Virus record (IMG/VR): IMGVR_UViG_3300025872_000216
Location: 1-29,787 of that record
Direction: 5' to 3' (one strand)
Origin: a virus
DNA length: 29,787 bases
Part shown: piece by piece, positions 2,754 through 20,699 of the stretch
Numbering within the stretch: position 1 is the stretch's first letter
Layout of the letters: each line of letters starts with the position of its first letter
Program-made: the position numbers and the translations under genes
The notes under the pieces: model-generated
Seen by the model: the letters and a program-made list of their open reading frames with translations, nothing else
Database searches by the model: none
Told to the model about the DNA's origin: nothing

Positions 2754-2761
2754 TATATTTG
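2754..2761 (+). promoter_or_regulatory. Bacteroidota -7 promoter element for the leader RNA
   Basis: TATATTTG is a perfect match to TAnnTTTG. No good TTTG was found 19-21 bp upstream, so the -33 half is weak and may need an activator, for example the DnaA-like protein binding the adjacent repeats. The predicted start is near 2767, exactly where the RNA structure begins. Confidence 0.55.
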
Positions 2762-2766
2762 TAACT

Positions 2767-2857
2767 GGTTCGGTCTCACATTATAGAACCTAAAGGTATT
2801 ATTGAAGCCTTATAATGAAATCGAAGTGAGACCCGATGGATTTATGAGGCTTTTTTT
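2767..2857 (+). ncRNA. Structured leader or small RNA with alternative terminator fold
   Basis: Fold 1: GGTCTCAC (2772-2779) and ATTATA (2780-2785) pair with GTGAGACC (2826-2833) and TATAAT (2811-2816), a 14-bp interrupted helix. That whole segment is also the loop of GGTTC (2767-2771)/GAACC (2786-2790), so a pseudoknot is possible. Fold 2: AAGCCTTAT (2805-2813) pairs with ATGAGGCTT (2844-2852), nine pairs with one G-T, running into seven T (2851-2857). The two folds exclude each other, as in an attenuator. The HNH and primase genes lie downstream with no other promoter seen. It could instead be a free-standing small RNA. Confidence 0.5.
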
Positions 2858-2875
2858 ATTACTTAAATTTTACAT

Positions 2876-3352
2876 ATGGTAGAAATTTGGAAAGATATCC
2901 CAGGATTTTTGGAATATCAAGTCAGTAATCTTGGGAGAGTAAAATCATTTAAAGGGCGAAATATAAAATTATTAAAGCCACAAACAAGAGTAAAAGGATA
3001 TAAATGTGTGTGCTTATCAAATGAAACAGATAAAAAACTTATAGATATTCATCGATTAGTATTGATGGCTTTTGTTGGTATGCCTCCAGAAGGTAAAGAA
3101 TGCGACCACATCAACAGAGTCAGAGATGACAATCGTCTTGAGAATTTGAGATGGGTCACCAAAGTAGAAAACGAGGCTAATAAATTAAAAAAATTTCCGA
3201 GTTATGTGAAAATAAATAATAATAGAAATAAGAAATATAGAGTTCAATTAAGGATAAATAAAAAAGATATTCATTTCGGATCGTTCTCTACTTTAGAGGA
3301 AGCAGAAAATAAAATAAAACAACTAAAAAATGAGTACAGTATCAGTATTTAA
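2876..3352 (+). CDS. Free-standing HNH homing endonuclease (NUMOD4-HNH-AP2 type)
   Basis: A 158-residue protein. Residues 3-25 (EIWKDIPGFLEYQVSNLGRV) are a NUMOD4 motif. Residues about 59-98 hold the HNH core (HRLVLMAF, CDHINRVRDDNRLENLRW) with His59, Asp77-His78 and Asn90. Residues 108-150 look like an AP2-type DNA-binding domain (YRVQLRINKKDIHFGSFSTLEEA). Such enzymes nick or cut a specific site and spread their own gene. The codons are far more AT-rich than those of the neighbours, a sign of recent arrival. It overlaps the primase start by 23 nt and lies right after the structured leader. Confidence 0.9.
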   Translation: MVEIWKDIPGFLEYQVSNLGRVKSFKGRNIKLLKPQTRVKGYKCVCLSNETDKKLIDIHRLVLMAFVGMPPEGKECDHINRVRDDNRLENLRWVTKVENEANKLKKFPSYVKINNNRNKKYRVQLRINKKDIHFGSFSTLEEAENKIKQLKNEYSISI

Positions 3353-5732
3353 AAACCTATTCAATACCAAGGAGACACCATTTTCTCTGTCCATTCACGA
3401 GGTTTACAACCGCATAAAGCACGGCAACCCCGAGCTCATCAAAAAAGTATCAACCATACGATCACTGGAGAAGGCTGACCCCGAGCATGACCGCCTCAAG
3501 TCATCACTCAATGCCATCATGTTCAATGGTACCTTCACCGAGCGAAATGACAGCAGTCTGGTCGAGCATTCAGGTCTGTGCATCCTGGACTTCGACCAAT
3601 ATCCAACCAAAAAGAAAATGATGGAGGAACGCAAGCGGCTAATTGCTGACCCCCATGTGATGATGGTGTTCACCTCACCAAGTGGTAATGGACTCAAGGC
3701 TGTCATCAGAATCCCAAAGTCGGACAAGGTTGAGCACAAGCGCAGATTTACTGCATTCGGCAAGTACTTCCAGAGTGAATATTTCGATACAAAGAACAGC
3801 AACGTCAGTCGAGTCTGTTTTGAATCCTATGACCCGGATATTTATTTCAATGAGTTCTGCCAGGTATTTGAAGGCATCGAGCAAGACCAGGGATTCAGCT
3901 ACACAGAGCGCACTCCAATCTGCATCCTATCCGATGAGGACAAAATAATCAGCTTGATTGAACGATTCGACCATGGATGTCAATTCGAGGAGGGCAGTCG
4001 CAATGAATTTGTGTTTAAATTAGCAGCAGTTCTCTGCGAGTATGGCATTGGGAAGGATACGGCAGAACAGTACATCTGGACCAAGTATGCTCAAGGCTCC
4101 AGCTTCAGCGAGCAAGAGATGGTCACAACCATTCGCTCGGCTTACAAAAAAGCCTCCTACGGCATCAAATACTTTGAGGACAAGGATACATTCCAAAGAG
4201 TGCGTCAAAAGCTCAAGAGCGGCATCGCAGACGATGACATCAAGAAACAACTGAACGTGCGAGAAGATGTCATTGAGGACATCAAGAAAGAGATTCAGAC
4301 CGGTGATGATATCTTTTGGTCGGTCAATGAGAAAGGCACAATCACAATCAAGCCATCCAACTACTCTGAATTTCTGGTCAAGAACGGATTCAATAAGTAC
4401 TATCCAGAGAATGCAGAGAAGCCAACCTTTGTGAGAGTCAAAGAGAACAAGGTTCGAATCTCATCAGCGGAGCAAATCAAGGACTTTGTGCTGAACTATC
4501 TGCAAAGCAAGGGTGAGATGGATGTATGGAACTACTGCTCCAGGAACGCATTTCTCTTCAATGAGAACTTCATCAATATGATTGACAGCATCAACATACT
4601 GATGCTTCAGGATAGCAAGGATGCATCGTATATCCCATTCAAGAATGGAGTGGCAAAGATATCCAAGAATAAAGTGGAGCTCAAGAGTTACATCGATGTC
4701 GATGGCTACATTTGGGAGAATCAAATCATCGAGCGAGATTTCACGCTGCTGGATGACTGCACCAATGACTTCAAAGATTTCGTCAGCAAGGTATCAGCAG
4801 ATGATAGAGGCAGAATCAATGCGCTTGAGACAACGCTCGGCTACCTCATGCACACCTTCAAGGATAAGACTGACCAGAAAGCAATCATCTTCAATGACCA
4901 AGAAATCGATGACAACCCGAATGGAGGGTCAGGCAAATCACTCATGTTGGCTGCACTTGGCAATCTGCGCAGAGTGGTCAAGATAGATGGCAAGAGCTTC
5001 AATCCATCCAAGTCTGATTTCGTTTATCAGCGAGTAAACCTGGACACGCAGATTCTGGCATTCGATGATGTGCGTAAAGCATTCGACTTCGAGCAGCTCT
5101 TCAGCCTCATCACCGAGGGAATTACCGTGAATCGCAAGAATAAGGATGAGATATTTATCCCATTCAACCGATCACCAAAGATTGTCATCACAACCAACTA
5201 TGTAATCAGTGGTGCTGGCTCTTCTCATGACCGCAGACGTCACGAGCTGGAGTTCTATCAGTACTTTCATAGCAAGCGCAGCCCACTCGATGAGTATGGT
5301 CGGCTCTTATTCGACTCCTGGGCCGATGAAGATTGGTTGAAGTTCGACAACTACATGGTCAAGAACCTTCAGAAGTACCTGACAAATGGATTGATGAAAT
5401 CCATCAGCATCAACGCAGATGCCAAGCGACTCATTCAGGCAACGTGCAAGGATTTCTTTGATTGGGTGGAGGAAGGCAACCTCGCTCTTGATGTGTACCA
5501 CTACAATGGAAGCAAGATTCAAGAATTCACCTCCGAGTTCACCTCATTCAAAGAGCTCGAGCCACGTAGATTCCTCAAATGGGTGCAATCGTATGCTGAT
5601 TATAAAGGCTACAACATCACCAAAGGACGCAATCACAACGGAAGATACTTCATTCTTGATTCGGGAAATCCCAAGCCGACTCCAGAATCTGATGATATTT
5701 GGGATGAGTTAAATGAAAAAGCAAAACAATGA
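3330..5732 (+). CDS. Primase-helicase with VirE_N-type N-terminus and P-loop ATPase C-terminus
   Basis: An 800-residue replication protein. Residues about 1-175 resemble the VirE N-terminal/BT4734-like domain (HSGLCILDFDQYP, VFTSPSGNGLKAVIRI), commonly fused to primases and helicases in Bacteroidota mobile DNA. Residues about 215-290 look like a primase C-terminal helical domain. The C-terminal half is a P4/D5-like helicase of the DUF5906 type: Walker A GGSGKS at 532-537, Walker B ILAFDD at 575-580, and a sensor-like IVITTNY. It probably unwinds DNA and makes primers at the fork. No separate DNA polymerase was found, so host polymerase is presumably used. It is followed by the VRR-NUC gene in an ATGA overlap. 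Confidence 0.85.
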   Translation: MSTVSVFKNLFNTKETPFSLSIHEVYNRIKHGNPELIKKVSTIRSLEKADPEHDRLKSSLNAIMFNGTFTERNDSSLVEHSGLCILDFDQYPTKKKMMEERKRLIADPHVMMVFTSPSGNGLKAVIRIPKSDKVEHKRRFTAFGKYFQSEYFDTKNSNVSRVCFESYDPDIYFNEFCQVFEGIEQDQGFSYTERTPICILSDEDKIISLIERFDHGCQFEEGSRNEFVFKLAAVLCEYGIGKDTAEQYIWTKYAQGSSFSEQEMVTTIRSAYKKASYGIKYFEDKDTFQRVRQKLKSGIADDDIKKQLNVREDVIEDIKKEIQTGDDIFWSVNEKGTITIKPSNYSEFLVKNGFNKYYPENAEKPTFVRVKENKVRISSAEQIKDFVLNYLQSKGEMDVWNYCSRNAFLFNENFINMIDSINILMLQDSKDASYIPFKNGVAKISKNKVELKSYIDVDGYIWENQIIERDFTLLDDCTNDFKDFVSKVSADDRGRINALETTLGYLMHTFKDKTDQKAIIFNDQEIDDNPNGGSGKSLMLAALGNLRRVVKIDGKSFNPSKSDFVYQRVNLDTQILAFDDVRKAFDFEQLFSLITEGITVNRKNKDEIFIPFNRSPKIVITTNYVISGAGSSHDRRRHELEFYQYFHSKRSPLDEYGRLLFDSWADEDWLKFDNYMVKNLQKYLTNGLMKSISINADAKRLIQATCKDFFDWVEEGNLALDVYHYNGSKIQEFTSEFTSFKELEPRRFLKWVQSYADYKGYNITKGRNHNGRYFILDSGNPKPTPESDDIWDELNEKAKQ

Positions 5733-12113: not shown

Positions 12114-13526
12114 ATGGCATTTAGAACACAGAAGATATCCCAGATGACTCCCAAGGGAGCTGACTTGGAAGCAACCGACCTCATCGAAGTATCCACCATT
12201 GAGAGTGGAAGCTACGTCACACGATCTATTACTGGTCAAGAACTCATCGACGCAATACCACCGACTACGATTGAATGGGGTGACATTGGCGGCACGTTGT
12301 CAAACCAGACCGACCTCAACACGGCATTGAATGGGAAAGTCCCCACCACTCGCACGCTAACAATAAACGGAACAACACAGGATTTATCTGCAAATAGAAC
12401 GTTTACGATACCTACTGATTTAACAGTCGGCACTACACCGATAGCTTCGGGTACAATAGGAAGAGTATTGTTTCAAGGTACGGGGAATGTGTTGCAGCAG
12501 AGTTCGTCTTTATTTTGGGACTCAACGAACAACCGCTTGGGGATTGGGACGAGCAGTCCGTTAAGTACATTTGAAGTTGTTGCAGGTTCTGACGCCAATG
12601 GAATTAAATTGCGTGGTAGGTCTGCGGATAACATCTCAAACTTTTTCTTTGCTTCGAATGATGGGGTAACTCAATACGGATATCTTCAGCATCGTTCTAC
12701 AGTTATGCGTTTGGTTAATAACGTTGGGGATTTAGAATTATGGAACGGGCCTAATATTGGCTCAACTGTTCAAAGAGCAACTTTATTTGGCGCAACGGGC
12801 AATCTTGCAATAAACACAACAACCGATGCAGGCTTCCGTTTAGACGTCAATGGTACTGCGAGGGTGCAGGGGAATGCGACTATTGTAGGCACGTCTTTAA
12901 GTAGCTTTTCGGTAAGCAACGGAGCAACTGCAATGATTCAAACTGCATCAAGTGGGATTGGTTCATCTGATTTTAGATTACGTTTATTTAACAACGGAAA
13001 CACGCAAACATTAGACCTTTATGGTTCGGGTGATTATGACCATCAATCTAAACACGCTTTTAGAACTAATGGAACTGAAAGGATGCGTATATTTTCCACA
13101 GGCAACGTCCTCATCAACACCACCACAGACGCAGGCTTTAGACTTGACGTTAACGGGACTGCGAGGGTGCAGGGTAACTTGACTTTAACGAGTGCGTTTC
13201 AGGTTAAATTCGCAAACAACAATAGATGGATAGGGCCGAGTGAGTTATATGCTGGAGTTCAAATATATGCAGCCGCTTCGGGTTCTGATGTAATACAAAT
13301 GACTGCAGGTCAGCAAGTACACATATCTTCAGCAGGTGGAATTACAACACAAACATCGTCAGTTTTACAAGTAGACTCCACCACCAAAGGCTTCCTACCC
13401 CCACGACAAACTCAGGCACAGCGTACCGCTATTGCCTCTCCAGCAGTTGGCCTCATTGTATATCAAACTGATTTGGCAGAAGGTTTGTATATTTACAAAT
13501 CAACAGGATGGACATTTGTAATATGA
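12114..13526 (+). CDS. Tail fibre / receptor-binding protein with internal repeats
   Basis: A 470-residue protein. The N-terminal ~75 residues (MAFRTQKISQMTPKGADLEATDL, TGQELIDAIPP) are the conserved virion-attachment type of Bacteroidota phage fibres. The long central part is repetitive beta-structure with phrases such as RLGIGTSSPLSTFEV and two identical 22-residue repeats (residues 233-254 and 334-355). The C-terminus (TTKGFLPPRQTQAQRTAI, GLIVYQTD, GLYIYKSTGW) is the typical fibre tip end. Codon style changes sharply near 12355, so the outer part was probably swapped in by recombination. It likely decides host range. A homing endonuclease follows in an ATGA overlap. Confidence 0.8.
   Translation: MAFRTQKISQMTPKGADLEATDLIEVSTIESGSYVTRSITGQELIDAIPPTTIEWGDIGGTLSNQTDLNTALNGKVPTTRTLTINGTTQDLSANRTFTIPTDLTVGTTPIASGTIGRVLFQGTGNVLQQSSSLFWDSTNNRLGIGTSSPLSTFEVVAGSDANGIKLRGRSADNISNFFFASNDGVTQYGYLQHRSTVMRLVNNVGDLELWNGPNIGSTVQRATLFGATGNLAINTTTDAGFRLDVNGTARVQGNATIVGTSLSSFSVSNGATAMIQTASSGIGSSDFRLRLFNNGNTQTLDLYGSGDYDHQSKHAFRTNGTERMRIFSTGNVLINTTTDAGFRLDVNGTARVQGNLTLTSAFQVKFANNNRWIGPSELYAGVQIYAAASGSDVIQMTAGQQVHISSAGGITTQTSSVLQVDSTTKGFLPPRQTQAQRTAIASPAVGLIVYQTDLAEGLYIYKSTGWTFVI
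12810..12875 (+). repeat. Fibre coding repeat, unit A
   Basis: It encodes 22 residues (INTTTDAGFRLDVNGTARVQGN) identical to those of unit B at 13113-13178. The DNA differs at 15 of 66 positions, all synonymous. The last third (ACTGCGAGGGTGCAGGG) is identical in both. Confidence 0.9.
13113..13178 (+). repeat. Fibre coding repeat, unit B
   Basis: The second copy of the 22-residue fibre repeat, 101 residues downstream of the first. All 15 nucleotide differences from unit A are silent, so the copies are old or codon-diverged but held constant in protein. Confidence 0.9.
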
Positions 13527-18655: not shown

Positions 18656-20699
18656 TGAAATAGAAATACCTCTCAAGCTCTCGGGTGTTCAGTCACTCAA
18701 GGCAGAGCTCCGCTCACTCAAGGCAGCCATTGCTGAAGCATCTGACCCAGAACAAATGGCGGCTCTCGCTGCCAGAGCTGGTGAGGTAGCGGATAGAATT
18801 AAGGATGCCAACGATGCTGTGAATGTGTTCGCATCTGGTTCGAAATTTGAGCAAATCAGCAACTCATTTGGTGGCATCCGTGACTCATTGATGTCACTTG
18901 ACTTCGAAGAGGCATCAACCAAAGCACAAACATTCAGCAAGACTCTCGGCTCATTGAATGCCGCTGACATCAGCAAGGGATTGAAAGGTCTCACGAGCAC
19001 TGTCACAACTATGGGTGGCGCATTCGTTAAGCTGGGAATGCAACTTCTCGTGAATCCAATTTTCTTACTTGCTGCTGTCATCACCGCAATCGTGGTTGCA
19101 GTAGTTGCTTTCTTGAAAAAAATTGGTGTACTTGATAAGATATTCAATGCCATCAATGCGGCACTGAAGCCATTGATTGATGGATTCAAGCAACTGACTG
19201 AATGGTTGGGATTGAGTACGGCTGCATCAGATGACGCAGCGGAAAAGGTCAAAGCCAACAATGAGAAGATTGTTGCATCTTCCAAAGAAAGAGCTGAAGC
19301 ACAAAGCAAGTCAATCGACCAAGAGATTCAGCTTGCTCAATCATTAGGCAAAGAAACAACTGACCTCGAAATTGAAAAGACAAAGGTCACAGAAAGAGAG
19401 TCAAAAAAGCGATTGAAGCAAACGCAGAAGGACCTCAAAGAATTGGGTGACAAGGTTGGGACATTGGCAGAACAAGAAAGAGCCAGACTCAAGAAACAAC
19501 TCAAGGAAGAGAATGCACTCATCCGTCAGGCACAGGTTGATCGTAAGGTCATCCTAAACAAAGCCGCCAAAGAGGATGCGGATGAAGCGAAAGAAAAGGC
19601 GGCAAAGGATGCTGAAGATGCAAAGAAAAGAGCTGAAGATGCAGCCAAGGCATACCGAGAAGGAAGAACAGCGATTCAAAAAGAGATTGCCGCAGCCAAT
19701 AAGTTGGTTGTCGATTCTGGCAAGACACAACAGCAGAAAGAAATTGATGATGTCAAGGCTAAATATGATGCTCTCATCAAGGAAGCTAAAAAATATAAGC
19801 AAGATACTACTGCACTTAAAGCAGCAGAAAAGTTGGAGATTGATGCTATCAACAAAGCTGCCGCTGATGCTGAACTTGAAATACAAAAGAATCTCGCAAA
19901 GCAATTAGCTGATTTCAGAAATGAAGAGCTCGACAGAGCAGAAGCAATCCAGGAGCAAGCATATCAATCCGGACTGACTGCTCGCCAAAAAGAAATTGAA
20001 GAGCGCACCTACTACTATGATAACTTAATTGCTGAAGCCAACCGATATGGTGTTGATACCAAAGTATTTGAAGAGCAACGCAGAAAGGAACTCGCTGACA
20101 TTAACAAGAAATTTGACGACCAAGAGAAACAAGTTGCACTTGAAAAGATAGCTCAAGAACAAGCCATCAGAGATGCCAAGATTGAGATTGCATCTTCAGT
20201 TGCTCAAGGACTTGGTGCTATTGGTGAGGCATTCATCAAGGACCAAGAGAAGCTCGAGAAATTCAACAAGGCGCAAGCACTTATACAGATAGGTATCGAC
20301 ACAGCCAAAGCAATCAGTTCATTGGTTGCGATGTCTCAAGCCAACCCACTCAACTCGGTAACTGCTGGTGCGGCTGGTCTTGCTCAATACGCTGCTGGTA
20401 TCGTTCAGATTGTGACCAACATTGCGAAGGCGAAGTCAATCTTGATGAACCCAACCAACACATCTGCGGCATCTGCTGGAGGAGGTGGTGGAACAAGCAG
20501 CAGCGCAAGCGGAGGTTCATCCGTTCCATCATTCGTACCTGGCAACCTATTCGGTCAAGGCAACGCAGCGAACAACGTAACCGCACCAACTGGCATGGAG
20601 TCAGGTCAGAATATCACTGTCACTGCTGTGGTGAGTGAGACAGAAATCACAGCCACGCAGAACAAGGTCAACAAAATCATGAAAAATTCAGTATTATGA
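18648..20699 (+). CDS. Tail tape measure protein
   Basis: A 683-residue protein. The N-terminus has helical repeats (LKAELRSLKAAIAEASDPEQ). A hydrophobic segment lies at about residues 137-156 (IFLLAAVITAIVVAVVAFL). A very long Ala/Lys/Glu coiled-coil region runs from about 200 to 520, then a second hydrophobic stretch near 560-600 and a glycine/serine-rich tail (SAGGGGGTSSSASGG). These are the marks of a tape measure, which sets tail length and helps pass DNA through the membrane. At about 1.5 angstroms per residue it predicts a tail near 100 nm. Confidence 0.85.
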   Translation: MANEIEIPLKLSGVQSLKAELRSLKAAIAEASDPEQMAALAARAGEVADRIKDANDAVNVFASGSKFEQISNSFGGIRDSLMSLDFEEASTKAQTFSKTLGSLNAADISKGLKGLTSTVTTMGGAFVKLGMQLLVNPIFLLAAVITAIVVAVVAFLKKIGVLDKIFNAINAALKPLIDGFKQLTEWLGLSTAASDDAAEKVKANNEKIVASSKERAEAQSKSIDQEIQLAQSLGKETTDLEIEKTKVTERESKKRLKQTQKDLKELGDKVGTLAEQERARLKKQLKEENALIRQAQVDRKVILNKAAKEDADEAKEKAAKDAEDAKKRAEDAAKAYREGRTAIQKEIAAANKLVVDSGKTQQQKEIDDVKAKYDALIKEAKKYKQDTTALKAAEKLEIDAINKAAADAELEIQKNLAKQLADFRNEELDRAEAIQEQAYQSGLTARQKEIEERTYYYDNLIAEANRYGVDTKVFEEQRRKELADINKKFDDQEKQVALEKIAQEQAIRDAKIEIASSVAQGLGAIGEAFIKDQEKLEKFNKAQALIQIGIDTAKAISSLVAMSQANPLNSVTAGAAGLAQYAAGIVQIVTNIAKAKSILMNPTNTSAASAGGGGGTSSSASGGSSVPSFVPGNLFGQGNAANNVTAPTGMESGQNITVTAVVSETEITATQNKVNKIMKNSVL

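Follow-up and report, generated by a model that had tools for sequence, protein, structure and literature searches.

What is the role of a structured, terminator-ended sequence that stands between a promoter and the primase gene of a phage? The question arises at positions 2,754 to 2,875 of the viral record IMGVR_UViG_3300025872_000216, of which we analysed a stretch of 29,787 nucleotides (hereafter the window; the RNA and the HNH and primase genes behind it lie on the plus strand). The feature is real, and it is part of a large RNA family of Bacteroidota phages. The minimum-energy fold of 2767-2857 has a first hairpin, P1, followed by a terminator hairpin, at -22.9 kcal/mol (z -2.6 against shuffles), and an equally good fold arose in 3 of 200 dinucleotide shuffles. 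Beyond this comparison, it is conservation across 93 aligned members that we regard as decisive.

The element is headed by a Bacteroidota-type -7 promoter element, TATATTTG (2754-2761), recognised by its sequence and by the spacing of TAnnTTTG in family members. P1 pairs GGTTC (2767-2771) with GAACC (2786-2790) around a loop, GGTCTCACATTATA (2772-2785), made up of a strand that we call K, GGTCTCAC (2772-2779), and an A/U-rich linker, ATTATA (2780-2785). A single-stranded spacer (2791-2804) leads to the second hairpin, in which the terminator stem P2 (2806-2815 with 2842-2851) is separated from an inner stem, P3 (ATCG, 2820-2823, with CGAT, 2834-2837), by a purine internal loop with a GAA side (2817-2819) and a GGA side (2838-2840), presumably a run of sheared G-A pairs. 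The loop of this hairpin ends with K', GTGAGACC (2826-2833), and the P1 loop begins with K, so that an 8-bp kissing helix is possible with both stems untouched. The U7 tract of the intrinsic terminator (2851-2857) is the expected 3' end of an RNA of about 90 nt. The promoter, the P1 hairpin, K' and the terminator (its stem drawn as AAGCCTTAT, 2805-2813, with ATGAGGCTT, 2844-2852, followed by the run of seven T) all lie where the earlier note had placed them. A conventional intrinsic terminator (9 bp, TTTT) is also seen at 419-440, 3' of an upstream gene.

Members were gathered from relatives of the window's primase, then by pattern scans of viral contigs and then with a covariance model. The covariance check in relatives proposed in the earlier note was run, and compensatory changes are present: of the pair cells in 93 aligned members 98.5% remain paired, and 25 of the 27 pairs vary on both sides. 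The covariation score is 0.888, whereas shuffles score 0.224 and slid partners no more than 0.108. A MAFFT alignment of 16 sequences, which was not fitted to a model, had 98.6% of cells paired and both-side changes in 25 of 27 pairs. Taking the stems in turn in the 93-member alignment, 100% of cells are paired in P1 (5 of 5 pairs vary on both sides), 98.7% in P2 (10 of 10) and 98.6% in P3, and at least five T are found in the eight nucleotides after P2 in 92 of the 93 members. Within the spacer A2793, T2799, T2800 and A2801 are conserved (1.3-1.5 bits, position-wise) and are required by no search pattern. The GAA/GGA loop occurs in 95 of 155 members taken from scans that did not require this motif, with purine-rich variants in most of the remainder. 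Linker-free pattern scans (155 members) put the linker consensus at approximately RNNATA, mostly 5-7 nt, and linkers of other members include GTAATA, ACCATA and ATTTA. An apparent invariance of ATTATA, TGAA and GGA proved to be partly an artefact of the search patterns; scans that left them unfixed returned the looser linker and variable purine internal loops. A subfamily (L088, L584, L599 and relatives) has a GGC/AAA internal loop and a longer P3, and is followed by small ORFs and a protein that resembles primases.

The kissing helix is absent from the covariance model, yet it pairs in 97.4% of cells over the 93 sequences (6 of 8 pairs vary on both sides), a percentage that leans upward because the 16-sequence set and most of the 93-sequence set were chosen after a filter on K:K' complementarity. 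The test that is independent of this filter uses patterns that leave the six variable bases of K unfixed. At least five of the six K:K' pairs were Watson-Crick in 114 of 118 phage matches with a P3 of 4 bp and in 67 of 90 with a P3 of 5 bp; the natural null, bacterial and archaeal genomes, gave 0 of 99 pattern matches at this level and none with the structure. Hundreds of relatives retain the loop-loop pairing while the letters change, and some HNH-bearing primase relatives carry other but complementary loops (e.g. CCTTCGAC/GTCGAAGG and GGTTCGAC/GTCGAACC). The octamer takes at least 40 different sequences, a count among K strands that are not phylogenetically independent, and all of them have three or four G/C in the first six bases. 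Duplex energies of 40 octamers range from -9.2 to -12.6 kcal/mol with a standard deviation of 1.0, compared with 2.5 for random N6AC sequences, and this narrow range points to a tuned kissing stability. Two loci with a second copy were also seen. L313 has copies near 927 and 2686, 1.8 kb apart, whose octamers differ (GTCTTCAC and CGTCTGAC), as if avoiding cross-pairing. L458 (G012:C1, approximately 12190-12283, minus strand) is a degenerate second RNA copy with an unrelated octamer, GGTCTGAA, and without the GGA motif.

The pairing that the earlier note had emphasised is longer, a 14-bp helix that was said to exclude the terminator, so that only one could form. Its 8-bp part (2772-2779 with 2826-2833) is the strongly conserved kissing helix, but its 6-bp part (2780-2785 with 2811-2816) shows no covariation. 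Pair by pair, these six positions are paired in 92, 78, 65, 62, 45 and 65 of approximately 93 sequences, and the linker has no compensating changes: when the P2 strand of this ATTATA/TATAAT extension changes, the linker stays as it is and P2's own partner follows. In addition, the best fold that holds the 14-bp helix reaches -14.7 kcal/mol, approximately 8 weaker than the -22.9 kcal/mol of the terminator fold. These observations indicate that the terminator is the selected partner of the P2 strand, and they leave a two-state switch unsupported; we therefore rejected a mechanism in which the terminator and a mutually exclusive 14-bp helix alternate. The claimed exclusivity thus fails, since no base is shared between the 8-bp kissing helix and the terminator and the two can coexist; conflict arises only from the unconserved 6-bp part. 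We found no conserved antiterminator helix, neither the alternative of the earlier note nor any other.

The surroundings of the RNA bear on what it might do. In 122 of 144 non-redundant members TAnnTTTG is found 3-12 nt before P1, most often at 4-7 nt (mode 5), compared with a background of about 1% per 15 nt. In the window the last base of TATATTTG lies 5 nt before P1, and transcription therefore probably starts at P1 or just before it. The preceding gene often ends approximately 20 nt before the RNA. The next ORF starts 10-20 nt after the U tract in 147 of 191 members, which leaves no room for another promoter, although this short distance could reflect the compactness of phage genomes. The earlier note saw no other promoter for the HNH and primase genes, and the window indeed has no other TAnnTTTG between the RNA and the primase start. 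With no promoter between terminator and gene, RNA polymerase has to read through the terminator if the replication genes are to be transcribed. In most genomes checked, replication genes are among the first downstream ORFs, though they are of unrelated families: replication initiators (Lin1244_N or HTH_36), DUF6291 proteins, primases and DnaB-like ATPases. Not all downstream genes are replication genes, and in some phages an HNH or MT-A70 protein comes first after the RNA. CGTCAC words are repeated upstream of the RNA, at 2600-2700 of the window, and occur in similar places in relatives that lack the RNA; they may be binding sites for the DnaA-domain-IV-like protein whose gene lies at 2126-2542, and may belong to a replication origin.

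In the window itself a NUMOD4 + HNH_3 endonuclease gene (2876-3352; Pfam) is inserted between the RNA and the primase gene (BT4734-like_N, PriCT_1; 3330-5732; Pfam and PHROGs), the first replication gene 3' of the RNA. The RNA and the HNH gene co-occur in the window's primase family: 14 members have both, 58 have neither and one is truncated, which suggests that they were gained or lost together. Most primase relatives lack the RNA and use a plain TAnnTTTA promoter, so the RNA is dispensable there; those with the HNH gene carry it. A purely HNH-linked RNA would fit this one family, but most members stand before genes of other kinds, with no HNH gene present, and we rejected that reading. Our reasoning is that (i) in L136, L231 and L250 the RNA is followed first by an HNH gene and then by an initiator, which has a relative in L120 that comes immediately after the RNA, and (ii) in L327 the RNA stands directly before a distant primase. 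HNH genes thus insert just behind the RNA; the HNH gene beside it is an insertion, and more broadly the RNA goes with replication genes. The insertion junction is marked in L027 and L028, where ACAAAACAACATTTTATG, which follows the HNH gene, is identical to the leader of RNA-less relatives.

Of the 31 phage records in which the covariance model found the RNA, 30 have a single copy and one has two. Among ten cultured Bacteroidota phage records, Flavobacterium phage FL-1 was the only clear match (18934-19029 of KY421186.2, linker AATAC), and this ties the family to Flavobacterium hosts. A second, weak match in FL-1 looks like coding DNA and was discarded, and a Riemerella phage match covers only about 45 nt around the promoter. 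Searching 397 Flavobacteriaceae genomes with the covariance model under stricter filters, which can lose weak matches, gave one match, on a 3.5-kb contig; this suggests an element of phages that are rarely present as prophages. Rfam had no match over the window's RNA or in 11 other loci carrying it, we found no description of the family in the open-access literature, and it is apparently undescribed.

A plausible scenario, to which we give about an even chance, is that the RNA is a cis-acting transcription attenuator in the 5' leader of the replication genes, with the kissing pseudoknot setting the efficiency of the terminator, the products being an RNA of about 90 nt and limited read-through. 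This is the most economical reading given that replication transcripts must cross the terminator. A promoter, a conserved P2 hairpin and a U tract stand before the gene, as an attenuator requires (122 of 144 and 92 of 93 members for the first and the last); the lack of a mutually exclusive antiterminator concerns two-state attenuators, not constitutive partial terminators. From the structure, covariation, promoter and context found computationally we infer the following course of events. A host-type promoter would start the RNA at P1 or just before it; P1 would fold first and present K in its loop; the terminator hairpin (P2, GA loop and P3) would come next and present K'. The 8-bp kiss would then allow P1, K:K', P3 and P2 to stack as one rod ending at U7, with the next ATG 18 nt further on. 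The majority of transcripts would stop at U7, leaving the RNA of about 90 nt, and the replication genes would be expressed from read-through. The kissing helix probably favors the terminator fold, since it can extend the rod of the terminator and leave P2 undisturbed; less probably, it acts in the opposite direction. Read-through, and with it the timing or dose of replication proteins, may be set by the tuned kissing strength itself or by a factor, from phage or host, that binds the kiss or disrupts it. That the strength is tuned and not maximal argues for an adjustable or regulated step. It is a tentative proposal, and on balance an unlikely one, that an intramolecular kissing pseudoknot built into an intrinsic terminator times the replication genes by its tuned strength alone or by contact with RNA polymerase, without a dedicated protein. 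The attenuator or riboswitch-like control suggested in the earlier note is thus retained as a structured, probably cis-acting, terminator-ended leader of replication genes, on the basis of family-wide covariation, the promoter, the position before replication modules and the read-through needed to reach the genes; the riboswitch part is not, there being no Rfam match.

Attenuation has to be weighed against a trans-acting role, in which the terminated RNA itself is the product (acting on host or phage targets as a decoy, sponge or regulator) and its position incidental. The earlier note had offered a small RNA ending at 2857; such an RNA is a likely by-product of the attenuator, while as the main product it is a live rival that we nevertheless think improbable. 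Its own promoter, compact structure and terminator, the usual single copy per phage and the conserved unpaired spacer bases, which could bind a protein, all suit a small RNA. However, the most exposed sequence, K/K', is used internally and varies freely, and a search of the phages' own genomes for sites complementary to K or K' showed no excess, which favors action in cis; furthermore, the genes behind the RNA can be transcribed only across the terminator, and the location before replication modules holds across unrelated genes.

Less likely still, in our view, is antitermination, in which the nascent RNA, once folded, would bind RNA polymerase and enable it to pass both the terminator of the element and those further on. 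There is precedent in HK022: its putL, about 70 nt long with two stem-loops, lies just downstream of an early promoter and works without a phage protein (PMC9378689). Here, too, two stem-loops (P1 and P2/P3) follow the promoter, and the kissing rod with its linker could make a comparably compact element. However, put has no terminator and is separate from the terminators that it overrides, whereas here the terminator stem belongs to the fold; Rfam also gave no sequence match. We see little chance that the RNA mainly stabilises the mRNA 5' end or enhances translation, as a capping structure with a U-rich tract and little real termination. P1 at the predicted 5' end and the A/U-rich sequence up to the start codon would suit such a role, but a G/C-rich P2 base followed by at least five T (92 of 93 members) is the design of a terminator, and kissing loops are not needed for a stabiliser. 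Finally, it is very improbable that the RNA serves a nearby phage replication origin, as a primer or in an R-loop: the RNA occurs once in nearly every record, adjoining replication genes, with CGTCAC repeats just upstream in the window, but cumulative GC-skew extremes are not at the RNA, close relatives replicate without it and no RNA-DNA switch signal was seen.

The RNA family is thus widespread, covaries strongly enough for its structure to be fixed, and stands at the head of phage replication operons; little is known of how phage genes are regulated in this group of hosts. A terminator loop that kisses an upstream hairpin loop, through octamers that are free to change but equally strong, is an unusual design. 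The timing of replication in these phages becomes directly testable, with FL-1 as a cultured phage for the purpose, and the element may suit use as an orthogonal attenuator set in Flavobacterium and Bacteroides.

With regard to known systems, the RNA, like HK022 put, is short, has two hairpins, opens an early phage transcript and probably acts in cis. The sequences differ, as do the hosts (enterobacterial versus Bacteroidota), and put lacks both a terminator and an 8-bp kissing helix; because the second hairpin is here the terminator itself, we do not file the RNA with put despite the shared position and size. Leader attenuators such as ribosomal-protein leaders and riboswitches share the arrangement of promoter, structured leader and intrinsic terminator just before the regulated gene. 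Unlike them, this RNA has no conserved mutually exclusive antiterminator, its terminator loop pairs with an upstream hairpin loop, and it is found in phages only, save for the one match in a bacterial assembly, where the contig is 3.5 kb long. In ColE1 RNA I/RNA II and in phi29 pRNA, loops kiss between molecules. The complementary hairpin loops are alike and of similar length, but here both lie in one transcript, stacked on one side through zero-nucleotide junctions.
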